Shown: positions 60,699 through 64,000 of the stretch, piece by piece
Layout of the letters: the number at the start of each line of letters is the position of its first letter
Numbering within the stretch: the stretch's first letter is position 1
Assembly: GCF_900102545.1 (NCBI RefSeq)
Contig: NZ_FNBN01000001.1
Span: forward strand, 1,194,221-1,258,220
Source of the DNA: Chitinophaga filiformis
GTDB lineage: Bacteria; Bacteroidota; Bacteroidia; Chitinophagales; Chitinophagaceae
Length of the DNA: 64,000 bases
Direction of reading: 5' to 3'
Notes under the pieces: model-generated
Told to the model about the DNA's origin: nothing
The model's input: only the letters and a program-made list of their open reading frames with translations
Databases searched by the model: none
Translations under genes and position numbers: made by a program

Positions 60699-62303
60699 TT
60701 AAAGCGCTTTGATGTCCATCAACCGCTCTTCAAACTCTTCCTTTGGAATAATTGCTTTGTTTTTGATCTTGGTTTTATAAGTGTAAATAGTGTTCACTGA
60801 ATATTCGAGTATCTGGGCAATTTTTACATTGTCGCTGATACCTATCCTTATCAGAGCGAAAATCCGTAGATCTGTGTTCAATAGTTCGTTGTCTTTTAAC
60901 CTGATCCGGTCTTCTTCTTTAAAAAACGAGTTAAAAACAGTCACAAAGTTGGGAAATATTTTCAGGAAGATCCGATCAAAATTTCTGAACAGTTCATCCC
61001 TTTCCTCCTTAAGGTCTATATTATTGACAAGGTACCTGACTTCGGCATATTTATTATCCGTTAGCTTCTGGTCGGCCAGTTTTTTGAACTTCTTGATCTT
61101 ATCCAGGTAAGATGAGTTTATCTGAAAACAATATCCAATATATTCCTCTTTGATCTTATTGGCCTCCATCAATTTATAGTTGATCTCCTGCTGGAGTGCA
61201 TGCGCGGAAGTAATTACCTGCTGAGCAGCCTGCAGCTTTTTATATTGCCGGTAAATGATCACAGACAGCCAGATCAGTGCCAGTAATAAAAGGGTAGCAA
61301 TGGCCGAATAGACAAATAACAACTTTTTCTGTGCCTCTACTGTATTGATCTTTTCCACCTCGATGATAGGAAGGATGGCGCTCACCTGTACCTTCCTTAA
61401 GCGTGCCCCGTAAAAAGAGGCGTCCGCCACCGCATATTCTATATACCGGGAGGCATGTTTAACATCCCGTTTTTTAAACAATAGTTCCGCAAGGATGAAC
61501 ATAGCCGTTGTTTCCTTGGTGCAGGACATGATGTCGGCCATGGCAGCTTTTGTCATCATAATGATAGCACTGTCCTGTTTCCCCATTCGTATATAGATAT
61601 TCCCCAATGAGGAAGTAGCTATTGCCTGCTGGTGTGTGGTGATATCCTGGTGGGCAACAGTCAGGGTATAATAGTACTTCGCACTGTCCATCATTTGCTT
61701 CTTCTGATACATTAAGCCATAACTATAGTCATAATTGAACGAATGCGGTTTATATAACATCAGCGCTGAGTCAATATAGATATTTCCCTGGCGGGTATAG
61801 GCAGGTGCAAAGTAAGTATCACTACTATAGTCAGACATGTCATAATAGTAACGTCCCTTTAATGAGTAGTATTCCGCTCTGGCACTATCTGGCAGGGAAT
61901 TGACGTTTACGGTCAGCAGGTAGTCACCTGCTTCACGAAACATACCGGAAGAAAGCAACACAAACCCCAGCTTAACACCAGCGTAATTGATCCGCTGTGA
62001 GTCATTCATTTCACGGGCCAGTTCCTGCAGCTTACGGGCATAAGCGAAAGCTGAATCATATTTGAAAACCTTGAACTGTTCATATAACTGCTGGCAAATG
62101 TCAAACTGCTGCTGCAGGGGTAAATGCCTCGCTGCTGCAAATGCCTGCCTCAGAGTATGTATCTGTTTCAGTTTTTCTGCATCATATATATGTGCATTTT
62201 CTATTGTCAGATTCAGTTTCTCCAATAAACTATCCCCGGCAGATCCGGCAAATGACAATTTACATGCAACTAGCAATAACAAACAAATAAGCTTCGATTT
62301 CAT
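60699..62303 (-). CDS. Membrane-bound TPR/HTH regulator, SusR-like (DUF6377 type)
   Basis: A 534-residue protein with a signal peptide (MKSKLICLLLLVACKLSFAG), TPR-like helical repeats in the periplasmic part (about 60-300), one transmembrane helix (about 333-352), a coiled segment and a cytoplasmic C-terminal domain. The last 60 residues (LLNTDLRIFALIRIGISDNVKIAQILEYSVNTIYTYKTKIKNK) look like a LuxR-type DNA-binding HTH. This layout is like SusR, which senses a sugar and activates susCD. It overlaps the upstream WYL gene by 4 bp and sits before susC, so it is a plausible regulator of susCD. Confidence 0.82.
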   Translation of the reverse strand: MKSKLICLLLLVACKLSFAGSAGDSLLEKLNLTIENAHIYDAEKLKQIHTLRQAFAAARHLPLQQQFDICQQLYEQFKVFKYDSAFAYARKLQELAREMNDSQRINYAGVKLGFVLLSSGMFREAGDYLLTVNVNSLPDSARAEYYSLKGRYYYDMSDYSSDTYFAPAYTRQGNIYIDSALMLYKPHSFNYDYSYGLMYQKKQMMDSAKYYYTLTVAHQDITTHQQAIATSSLGNIYIRMGKQDSAIIMMTKAAMADIMSCTKETTAMFILAELLFKKRDVKHASRYIEYAVADASFYGARLRKVQVSAILPIIEVEKINTVEAQKKLLFVYSAIATLLLLALIWLSVIIYRQYKKLQAAQQVITSAHALQQEINYKLMEANKIKEEYIGYCFQINSSYLDKIKKFKKLADQKLTDNKYAEVRYLVNNIDLKEERDELFRNFDRIFLKIFPNFVTVFNSFFKEEDRIRLKDNELLNTDLRIFALIRIGISDNVKIAQILEYSVNTIYTYKTKIKNKAIIPKEEFEERLMDIKAL

Positions 62304-63340
62304 TTTTCAGTTTTGTGGAATAGTAGCGGGTCGCTGTAATTGATCACCCCCTGCTGCATCTTTTTCTGCATTCTGGCTACCAGGTTTGCCGGCGACAGAA
62401 CCGTCATTCCGTCTCCGTATCCGAGGATTTCCCTTTCCAGCTCAAAATTCAGTTGGACCTTCAGGCTAATAACGATGCCATCTTCCCGGGTCTCTATCAG
62501 CTCCTGGGTATGATGCATTGGTTTTGTGAGAATGTATGGCGCGTGTTCATGACTGACAAGTATTTTTACATGCTGGGCCCGCAGATTAGTAGAAACTGTC
62601 ACTCCCACTACATCCCTATAATAGGTTGCCGGCTCCATATCATCATTTTCGATATATAAAGGTGTGTCCAACAGTTCCAGTTCATGTATCCTGTCCAGCG
62701 CCAGGTGGGTAATTACCATACCTTTTCCCTTTACCCCCACTGCAAACCACCTGTTTTTAAACTCCTTCAGCCACCAGACATGGTATTCAAAAGTGTTGCC
62801 ACTCTTTGCACGAAAAGACTGATAGGTGATCTTCACCACTTTTCTTTGTATCACTGACTGATACAGCAGCTCCAGGTGCTCCAATCCCTTCAGCCGCTCA
62901 TTCTTTTCAAAGTCAATAACTGACCGCGTATTGTGAGAGGCTGCGTACACATGATCCTCCAGTTTCTGCACTACCTCATTCAGACTACTGAAATGAGAGA
63001 AGCCTTTGAATTGTTTAAGCACTTCCACGGCTTCATTCATACGACTCAGGTCAACGTCGTTCAAAGGAATTTTAGTGATACTGTAGTCCGGATCTTCATA
63101 CGTGTAATATTTCTTGTCCACGACAATGATCGGCGCACTATATCCCAGCTTATCACTCCGCATGGCCTGCAGGTCCATCTGGATGGCACGCCGGCTGATC
63201 CCTTTTTCAACGCCCTCATATTCGTACAATGCATCTCCTACTGCGTTAATAAGATCTTGTAACGTCCATTTCCGTAAACGGTTCCGGAGACAGGAATCTA
63301 TAGTTCTGTAACGGATAAGGGCATTCTTATTAACAGGCAT
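62300..63340 (-). CDS. WYL domain HTH transcriptional regulator
   Basis: A 346-residue protein with an N-terminal winged helix (YRTIDSCLRNRLRKWTLQDLINAVGDALYEYEGVEKGISRRAIQMDLQAMRSDK) and a WYL domain (about 160-330: VKITYQSFRAKSGNTFEYHVWWLKEFKNRWFAVGVK). WYL domains bind nucleic acid or nucleotide ligands and often switch on stress, RNA-repair or defence loci. Its stop overlaps the start of the TPR/HTH regulator by 4 bp (62300-62303). Upstream, divergent, lies the structured 63.4-64 kb segment containing a tRNA-like RNA. The TGCGCA inverted repeat overlaps its promoter, so it may autoregulate and control that RNA. Confidence 0.88.
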   Translation of the reverse strand: MPVNKNALIRYRTIDSCLRNRLRKWTLQDLINAVGDALYEYEGVEKGISRRAIQMDLQAMRSDKLGYSAPIIVVDKKYYTYEDPDYSITKIPLNDVDLSRMNEAVEVLKQFKGFSHFSSLNEVVQKLEDHVYAASHNTRSVIDFEKNERLKGLEHLELLYQSVIQRKVVKITYQSFRAKSGNTFEYHVWWLKEFKNRWFAVGVKGKGMVITHLALDRIHELELLDTPLYIENDDMEPATYYRDVVGVTVSTNLRAQHVKILVSHEHAPYILTKPMHHTQELIETREDGIVISLKVQLNFELEREILGYGDGMTVLSPANLVARMQKKMQQGVINYSDPLLFHKTEK

Positions 63341-63353
63341 CAGGATATTTTTT

Positions 63354-63396
63354 CAAAAAGTAAAAAAAATATTCTAATGCGCAAAAAAAGTGCGCA
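63354..63396 (-). promoter_or_regulatory. WYL gene promoter overlapping a TGCGCA inverted repeat
   Basis: On the minus strand TTTG (63382-63385), a spacer of about 19 nt and TACTTTTTG (63354-63362, one base longer than consensus). Two TGCGCA hexamers (63378-63383, 63391-63396) spaced 7 bp overlap the -33 box, giving an operator-like site. Confidence 0.55.
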
Positions 63397-63406
63397 CATG
63401 ACTTTC

Positions 63407-63433
63407 ACCTTTGTATTGTCATCGCCGATGACA
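63407..63433 (+). promoter_or_regulatory. Possible -7 element and start-site palindrome for the structured RNA region
   Basis: CACCTTTG (63407-63414) is one base from TAnnTTTG on the plus strand. Next to it lies a perfect palindrome TGTCATCG-C-CGATGACA (63417-63433), either an operator or a 5' hairpin. No -33 element was found. Confidence 0.35.
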
Positions 63434-63550
63434 CAGTTACAAAAGGCTGCGGTGGACCCGACGAGGGTTTCTGAATGGCCCCGTAGTATTGCCACGATTC
63501 GCTGGTAATATGCTGCTGCCGCAAGTGTTTGTTACTATATCTATATGTGC

Positions 63551-63628
63551 GTAGGTTCGATTCCTGCTCCTCTGAAAAAGGATAGCTCAGCTGGTAGAGC
63601 AATAGACTTTGAACCTGAAAAGTTCAAA
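63551..63628 (+). ncRNA. Permuted tRNA-like RNA module, candidate YrlA-type Y RNA
   Basis: Read 5' to 3': a T-arm with stem GTAGG/CCTGC and loop TTCGATT (63551-63567); an acceptor-like hairpin TCCT/AGGA (63568-63571 with 63579-63582) closed by loop CTGAAAA; TA (63583-63584, as tRNA positions 8-9); a D-arm GCTC/GAGC with loop AGCTGGTA (63585-63600); a short linker; and a 7-bp hairpin TTTGAAC/GTTCAAA (63608-63628), again with loop CTGAAAA, the tRNA-Phe anticodon-loop sequence. Order T, acceptor, D is circularly permuted relative to tRNA. Known bacterial Y RNAs of the YrlA type carry tRNA-like domains. Full RNA limits, probably beginning near 63420, are uncertain. Confidence 0.65.
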
Positions 63629-63652
63629 CCTGGACTTGAAATCCAAACTCCA

Positions 63653-63760
63653 GCAGATGGCAAACTGCTTTAACAACTGCCGTTTCTAACTAAGACAGGG
63701 TAGCAGCCCGGCAGAGAAGCAAAAGGCTTCTTCTCCATCTGCAACCGCCTTGAAAAAGGC
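63653..63760 (+). ncRNA. Structured region downstream of the tRNA-like module
   Basis: GCAGATGG (63653-63660) pairs with CCATCTGC (63735-63742), enclosing CTGCCG/CGGCAG (63677-63682 with 63709-63714) and AGAAGC/GCTTCT (63715-63720 with 63726-63731). A GAAA-tetraloop hairpin GCCTT/AAGGC (63747-63760) follows. No open frame is present. It may be part of the same RNA or a second one. Confidence 0.45.
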
Positions 63761-63938
63761 AGATACCGCTGTTGAACGTGCAACTGCTCTCAGGCCGGGT
63801 ACCTGGTTTATACCTATACCGGTATCCCTGTACCTTGCGTAGCCCACCTGGCACCATGGCCGGGAACATGTTTCACCGACAACAACTCAAGCCCGCTTCC
63901 GCAGGTAACAGAAATGGTAGCTACCCTACAGATACACC
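63761..63938. other. Gene-free, GC-richer segment
   Basis: Contains small palindromes such as ATACCGGTAT (about 63816-63825) and GGTAGCTACC (about 63916-63925), but no long helix I can support. The 74-codon open frame over this region lacks coding character. Confidence 0.35.
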
Positions 63939-63960: not shown

Positions 63961-64000
63961 AATTATAATTTACTAATCCCTAAACCGAAACGATAGATTT

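Follow-up and report, generated by a model that had tools for sequence, protein, structure and literature searches.

An RNA family of Bacteroidota with permuted tRNA-like modules, encoded upstream of slipin genes

Within a stretch of 64,000 nucleotides of the Chitinophaga filiformis genome (contig NZ_FNBN01000001.1; hereafter the window), we find a structured element that is not a product of chance and that is, almost certainly, a member of a real and distinct RNA family. As shown by comparison of loci, the family lies upstream of slipin genes, often among genes for RNA repair and spare tRNA genes. It is widely conserved and apparently undescribed: no description of a slipin-linked tRNA-mimic RNA was found in the literature searched, and key Y RNA literature lies outside that search, so a prior mention is possible.

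The element belongs to the intergenic stretch, in which the window ends, between a gene for a WYL-domain regulator and a slipin-type gene. Direct reading of 63551-63600 on the + strand confirms the permuted order that a first-pass annotation, made from the sequence of the window, had pointed out: T-arm, closed acceptor-like hairpin, TA, D-arm. By sequence, the T-arm (63551-63567) reads GTAGG/TTCGATT/CCTGC, the closed acceptor-like hairpin (63568-63582) TCCT, loop CTGAAAA, AGGA, and the D-arm (63585-63600) GCTC, AGCTGGTA, GAGC. As had also been stated, the loop CTGAAAA recurs in a 7-bp hairpin at 63608-63628 (TTTGAAC, loop, GTTCAAA; assigned by sequence and lying outside the covariation test), where it resembles an anticodon loop (GAA); this hairpin occupies the place that module 2 has in two-module relatives.

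Three further parts had been overlooked. A framing helix, TCTAT (63540-63544) with ATAGA (63602-63606), is the equivalent of the tRNA anticodon stem and delimits a permuted tRNA-like module at 63540-63606. It is followed by an anticodon-arm-like hairpin (63631-63645, TGGA/CTTGAAA/TCCA), which has 4 bp in the window, and by an H-type pseudoknot (63652-63682, AGCAG A TGGCA AA CTGCT TTAACAAC TGCCG), for which 0 of 100 shuffles were as good. On the 5' side, a domain at 63463-63516 comprises a hairpin (63463-63482) and a stem GTAGTATTGCCA...TGGTAATATGCTGC (63483-63516), the inner 8 pairs of which close in the RNAalifold consensus with four relatives, one of them cut at its 5' end; sequences resembling this domain were noticed by eye in other families. 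All these parts are on the + strand. Folding of 63420-63800 alone gives a weak signal (z -1.53).

Searches with known models set the element apart from tRNA. ARAGORN finds 0 tRNA genes in the window, and no Rfam match for the element is above threshold. Both covariance searches that the annotation had suggested as checks remained sub-threshold: the tRNA model gives 18.2 bits (threshold 29), and the YrlA model (RF02553) 37.1 bits over 63525-63634 (gathering threshold 69; E 1.9e-6 for 701 bases searched). An ordinary or decayed tRNA is ruled out by the ARAGORN result and the tRNA score, and the earlier statement that this is not a decayed tRNA read in order is supported, in that the element is a conserved, covarying permuted tRNA mimic. 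Some relatives exceed the tRNA threshold (29.5-34.1 bits) when D1 is read with T2. In this regard, the YrlA threshold is passed by no match in the C. filiformis genome, Ro60-linked RNAs included (best 40.2), so that the gathering score alone separates nothing. The family is like tmRNA in combining a tRNA-like part with a pseudoknot and unlike it in that matches to the tmRNA model are weak (16.3-19.5 bits, threshold 47).

A model of the family itself, R1, was built from 16 slipin loci of the host family (Chitinophagaceae), the window not being among the training sequences. It matches 63537-63647 at 55.2 bits, with an E value, to be taken as rough, of 2.4e-13 in 177,225 bases. By itself this score is not decisive, because tandem tRNA genes reach equal scores; R1 matches such genes at up to 75.1 bits and Ro60-linked Y RNAs at up to 72.5 bits, and for this reason it is unusable below about 76 bits without context. 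For the window, the context is a slipin-type (Band_7/SPFH) gene on the same + strand, downstream of the R1 match and running from window position 64001 (L011:1001-2107).

Relatives of this slipin gene (E 1e-40 or better) occur in 32 of 147 host-family genomes, and 31 of the 32 loci have an R1 match upstream of it, the weakest being L040, L042 and L047 (28.0, 36.8 and 40.9 bits). L078, the sole locus without a match, carries a partial slipin gene with a broken frame. All 21 host-family hits of at least 78 bits are in slipin loci, 16 of them being training sequences; at E 0.001 some R1 match is found in 145 of the 147 genomes, unsorted below 72 bits. Across the phylum (345 genomes), each of the 12 hits of at least 86.9 bits outside the host family is followed by slipin 452-678 nt beyond the RNA start, and the weaker hits with a fetched neighbourhood are tRNA arrays without slipin (6/6). 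This survey was cut at E 1e-14 and therefore missed single-module members, the window's own genome included (0 matches).

The reverse search, starting from slipin, gave an upstream R1 match on the same strand in 78 of the best 80 named loci (of at least 541), with a spacing between core and slipin of 193-529 nt. R1 scores at least 76 bits in 61 of the 78; the other 17, at 28.8-71.9 bits, were accepted because of their place before slipin, and in two cases, L260 and L251, the match taken was the one closest to slipin, although another further upstream scored slightly higher. L190 and L210 are the two of the best 80 without an R1 match. Most of the named loci belong to Chitinophagaceae, Flavobacteriaceae, Cytophagales, Pedobacter and Bacteroidales, and Chitinophaga pinensis is one of the species with the locus; two records stand under proteobacterial MAG names and may be misbinned. 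As side observations, a palindrome and an apparent lone tRNA gene can be seen by eye just upstream of slipin in L190 and L210, and in-frame stop codons interrupt otherwise conserved slipin genes in L037 (G067), L042 (G018), L078 (G071) and L159.

In its common form the RNA carries a tandem pair of permuted modules and then the H-type pseudoknot, the closed anticodon arm belonging to the second module; the order is T1, acceptor, D1, helix partner ACAG, T2, acceptor, D2, closed anticodon arm. The window and its near relative L048 have one module each, and the window has two anticodon-loop-like hairpins; the window member is a reduced, single-module form that has lost module 2. Longer forms with additional permuted modules occur in L142 (1501-1811) and L145 (minus strand, 1288-1660), both from one other family. 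Inspection by eye of these two also reveals more anticodon-like arms, with Arg-ACG-like and Asn-GUU-like loops.

The annotation had called for an alignment of the locus in related genomes, and covariation is what the alignments reveal. In the training set (16 sequences), 95.7% of cells are paired and 28 of 37 pairs show double changes, with a covariation score of 0.621 vs 0.211 in shuffles. A separate collection, A4, was made up of 61 of the 78 matching named loci aligned to R1; in this alignment, which leans towards the model and may contain some training-set genomes, 97.5% of cells are paired, double changes affect 32 of 36 pairs and 621 cells (vs 171.5 cells in shuffles), and the covariation score is 0.769 vs 0.232. 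When partners are slid by 1-3 columns, pairing falls to 40.5-48.0%. In A4 the T-arm and D-arm helices are 100% paired, and the acceptor-like hairpin has double changes in 5/5 pairs with 94.7% of cells paired. The framing helix, the weakest part in the training set (81.3% paired, double changes in 2/4 pairs), reaches 97.5% of cells paired and double changes in 4/4 pairs among the 61 sequences. The pseudoknot lies outside the R1 model, and its stem sequences vary among loci. It was sought in the 30 of 42 loci whose anticodon-arm end had been placed by eye, and in 25 of these, the window included, an H-type solution is equalled in 3 of 100 shuffles or fewer, the shuffles preserving composition only and the solution in L019 being of different geometry; L037 and L042 have none.

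The anticodon arm covaries in the 61 relatives at 5/5 pairs. U33, a purine at 37 and A38 are the marks of a good anticodon loop, and among the 51 of 61 relatives with 7-nt loops, to which the following counts refer, they are present in 47, 48 and 44, respectively. At positions 34-36 the 47 U33 loops have 19 distinct triplets, most often CAA, GAA, TTT and GTT. Good-loop features are conserved while the anticodon identity changes, which leads us to prefer a partner that reads the anticodon loop, such as tRNA-cleaving enzymes, over one that reads the elbow only. The acceptor loops are short: 4-9 nt separate the strands in module 1 in 54/61, and 5-13 nt separate the 4-bp strands of module 2 in 57/61. 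The idea of a mimic anticodon complementary to the local tRNA array was dropped: the mimic triplet occurred within its own array in 0 of 24 cases of a first set (expected 4.05, P 0.004, arrays cut at 3 kb) and the effect was absent in a second, hand-picked set (4 of 20, expected 3.9).

The first-pass annotation had taken the element for a candidate YrlA-type Y RNA, and part of this comparison holds: the permuted module is YrlA-like, its T-arm, closed acceptor hairpin and D-arm following one another as in YrlA inside a basal helix. The Ro60 partnership is not supported. The annotation had counted the lack of a TROVE gene anywhere in the genome as a point against its proposal; a Ro60 (TROVE) gene is present at G000:C9:371005-372531 (L012:7006-8532), about 0.88 Mb from the window RNA. 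This gene has Y RNAs of its own directly after it, in several tandem Y-RNA-like copies (L012:8590-9250) with a GGTGTCGT...GTTACTTCG stem. Among the 32 host-family genomes with the slipin gene, TROVE is matched in 5 (about 3 expected by chance; 14 of 147 overall) and absent in 27. The 5' motif of the Y stem is found in 14 of 14 Ro60-linked modules vs 0 of 42 slipin-linked RNAs, the window included, and the 3' motif in 10 of 14 vs 3 of 42, the motifs having been derived from those same 14 modules (8 loci); the 5' motif also appears seven times in L126, a Ro60-linked locus outside the derivation. An earlier, narrower pattern recovered only 3 of 17 Ro60-linked loci and was for that reason replaced by the 14-module one. 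The slipin-linked RNA is Y-RNA-like in part of its fold but fails membership in that class, and a Ro60 partner RNA was rejected on the missing 5' motif and the mostly absent TROVE gene.

Neighbouring genes were counted from 7 kb upstream to 8 kb downstream, each cluster being named from one Pfam-scanned member. The 32 host-family slipin loci contain RtcB in 19, RNaseH_like (PF04308) in 18, an AAA ATPase in 12, WYL in 10 and two types of RlaP in 6 and 5; in 13 loci RtcB is not nearby. In 12 loci of other families (16 kb each), the RNA stands beside slipin in 12, with RtcB in 3, RNaseH_like in 3, WYL in 2 and tRNA genes in 10. By ARAGORN within 3 kb, individual predictions being unchecked, 47 of the best 80 named loci have upstream tRNA genes on the strand of the RNA, and none of the 80 has them on the opposite one. 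Spare tRNA arrays were also observed in slipin-RNA loci L159-L170 and L048-L065, with up to 18 tRNAs (L051). The annotation had advised looking just after position 64000 for TROVE/Ro60 or RtcB: what follows in the window genome is the slipin-type (Band_7) gene and, further on, two RlaP-type nucleotidyltransferase genes (L011:4729-6560), which precede tRNA-Ile(UAU), -Gln and -Cys some 6 kb downstream (L011:7067-7300) adjoining an RNaseH_like gene; the TROVE/Ro60 and RtcB genes are located elsewhere. RlaP takes part in RNA repair, according to a passage of PMC7824862. The setting is thus one of RNA repair and tRNA replacement, and its constant partner is slipin, not RtcB.

The WYL-domain transcriptional regulator named as a neighbour in the annotation is indeed there, encoded divergently from the RNA at 62300-63340 on the - strand with WYL and WCX matches of 33.8 and 48.2 bits, both above cut-off. 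Between the two, at 63378-63396, is an unstranded palindrome TGYGCA-N7-TGCRCA, a pattern that comparison of loci links to WYL: in the 10 WYL-carrying host-family loci its strict form is present in 7 and its loose form in all 10, and the other 22 host-family loci have 0 strict and 3 loose occurrences. In the other families, 10 of 12 loci have it 210-590 nt before the RNA, and a similar pattern is found in the best 80 named loci within 1.5 kb upstream in 43 and within 1.5 kb downstream in 5. The palindrome is probably the operator of the WYL regulator, which would bind it.

The window genome has 5 strict sites and 0 in a reversed-pattern control. One lies before the window RNA. Ro60 and an RtcB gene each have a site 42 nt in front of them, and a 129-aa ORF has one at 62 nt; the last, with another spacer and perhaps a chance occurrence, is at the start of a SusC-like-looking ORF. 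The palindrome of the 129-aa ORF also precedes a 266-aa ORF, and this locus (L180:1501-2948, G000:C11:563480) is a possible further regulon member. Of the 14 host-family Ro60 matches, 12 have a loose palindrome upstream, although in one case it fits poorly and is more than 1 kb away. Since the same palindrome precedes both, Ro60 and the window RNA may share a regulon. After the palindrome comes CACCTTTG (63406-63413, + strand), a possible -7 element of the Bacteroidota type; in 7 of the 10 WYL loci, the window included, TTTG follows a palindrome at a distance of 13-14 nt. The transcript would start near 63420. A sigma-70 scan found no promoter beyond chance.

As to function, we propose that this Bacteroidota RNA family, with its 5' domain, permuted tRNA mimics, anticodon arm and pseudoknot before slipin, acts as a tRNA decoy or bait, a statement which as a whole, decoy included, we regard as plausible and short of probable. 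The RNA of the window would probably be transcribed from the promoter beside the WYL-linked operator, together with slipin. It would work in trans: tRNA-cleaving enzymes would meet a tRNA elbow and anticodon loops whose identity varies and, with no free acceptor end on the mimic, could be kept occupied or have their activity sensed. Meanwhile, RtcB and RlaP would repair damaged tRNAs, and the spare tRNAs would replace them. In its fullest version, which is rather doubtful, a chain of permuted tRNA mimics with exchangeable anticodon arms would be bait against tRNA-cutting toxins or phage-defence nucleases and would act with membrane-bound slipin in a WYL-controlled response of repair and tRNA replacement across Bacteroidota, as a new class of bacterial RNA. 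For YrlA, competitive inhibition of a nuclease has been proposed, and no YrlA fragments were seen in Salmonella under tRNA cleavage, as reported in passages of PMC7790460; mimicry, to judge from that result, need not mean cleavage. RtcB is an inconstant neighbour, missing from 13 of 32 host-family loci and present in only 3 of the 12 from other families; this counts against a decoy, as does the loss of module 2 in the window member.

A decoy need not be strictly tied to slipin, so that the observed tie favours a role in a ribonucleoprotein or in cis. It is possible, if still doubtful, that the RNA is an adaptor whose tRNA-like modules bind PNPase or another tRNA-handling enzyme and whose 5' domain or pseudoknot binds a protein, slipin or a different one, so that an RNA-processing complex is tied to the membrane. 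The near-strict partnership with slipin (78 of the best 80 loci), stricter than that with RtcB, the large 5' domain and the permuted module common to YrlA are consistent with this adaptor, and the YrlA module is reported to bind PNPase while its basal stem holds Rsr (passages of PMC8394870). The full anticodon arm, however, is absent from the YrlA design described there, RNA binding by slipin is purely putative, and adjacency of genes is no proof of binding. We consider it unlikely that the RNA is a cis-acting leader that would regulate slipin expression in response to tRNA damage, nucleases or tRNA-binding enzymes sensed by its tRNA-like fold. Such a leader would agree with the placement on the same strand, 193-529 nt upstream of slipin in 78 of the best 80 loci, and with the palindrome and possible promoter in front of the RNA; a gap of that length between core and slipin speaks against it, as does the scan for a terminator-like site before slipin, at chance level (1 site vs 0.8 in shuffles), and a simple switch needs neither repeated modules nor anticodon arms.

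It is very unlikely that the RNA is, as first proposed, a genuine Y RNA of the YrlA type with Ro60 as its binding protein: the YrlA match at 37.1 bits and the Ro60 gene under the same palindrome are outweighed by the 5' motif in 0 of 42 RNAs, TROVE being absent in 27 of 32 genomes and the Ro60 gene having its own adjoining Y RNAs. Module 2 has all four tRNA arms in permuted order, the anticodon loops look normal and many loci contain RtcB, all of which would suit a permuted tRNA gene whose ends RtcB joins and whose acceptor loop is opened by processing to give a working tRNA; we hold this to be highly improbable, for the short acceptor loops would leave little room for normal end maturation and the anticodon identity varies without filling a clear gap. 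That the modules are remnants of tRNA genes gathered by recombination could be suggested by the tRNA arrays in many loci and by R1 matches to tandem tRNA genes of up to 75.1 bits. The acceptor halves, however, pair and covary, which in our view already refutes such remnants, and the position before slipin is fixed; their probability is close to nil.

Compared with known systems, the slipin-linked RNA is like YrlA in occurring in RNA-repair loci and, in the window genome, in an operator-like palindrome seemingly common to both. It differs from YrlA in having no Ro60-type Y-stem motif, up to several tandem modules, a closed anticodon arm and an H-type pseudoknot, with slipin as partner gene in genomes mostly without Ro60. 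In permuted tRNA genes of algae and archaea the 3' half of the tRNA precedes the 5' half; the 3' half also comes first here, whereas the acceptor is closed by a short loop and the modules are tandem, with no sign of maturation. The rsr-yrlBA-rtcBA operon of Salmonella likewise has a tRNA-mimic RNA adjoining RtcB in a damage-response operon; as described in passages of PMC7790460, it is controlled by RtcR, in contrast to the WYL-linked palindrome of the window genome, and unlike it the slipin-RNA loci have slipin, RlaP and spare tRNA arrays, with RtcB not always adjacent. In Anabaena, one repressor (TrcR) controls rtcB, a slipin gene and the trn tRNA operon, bringing RtcB, slipin and tRNA genes together as in our loci, but the regulator is another one and the passages concerned (PMC10272220) mention no tRNA-mimic RNA.

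Together, our findings add a structured RNA to RNA-repair and tRNA-replacement loci whose RNA components are poorly understood, and they indicate that tRNA mimicry of the Y RNA type occurs in genomes without Ro60. Slipin genes, too, gain a candidate partner and function. The question of whether tRNA mimics beside repair genes are decoys, sensors or adaptors becomes testable in this family, its changing anticodon loops included.
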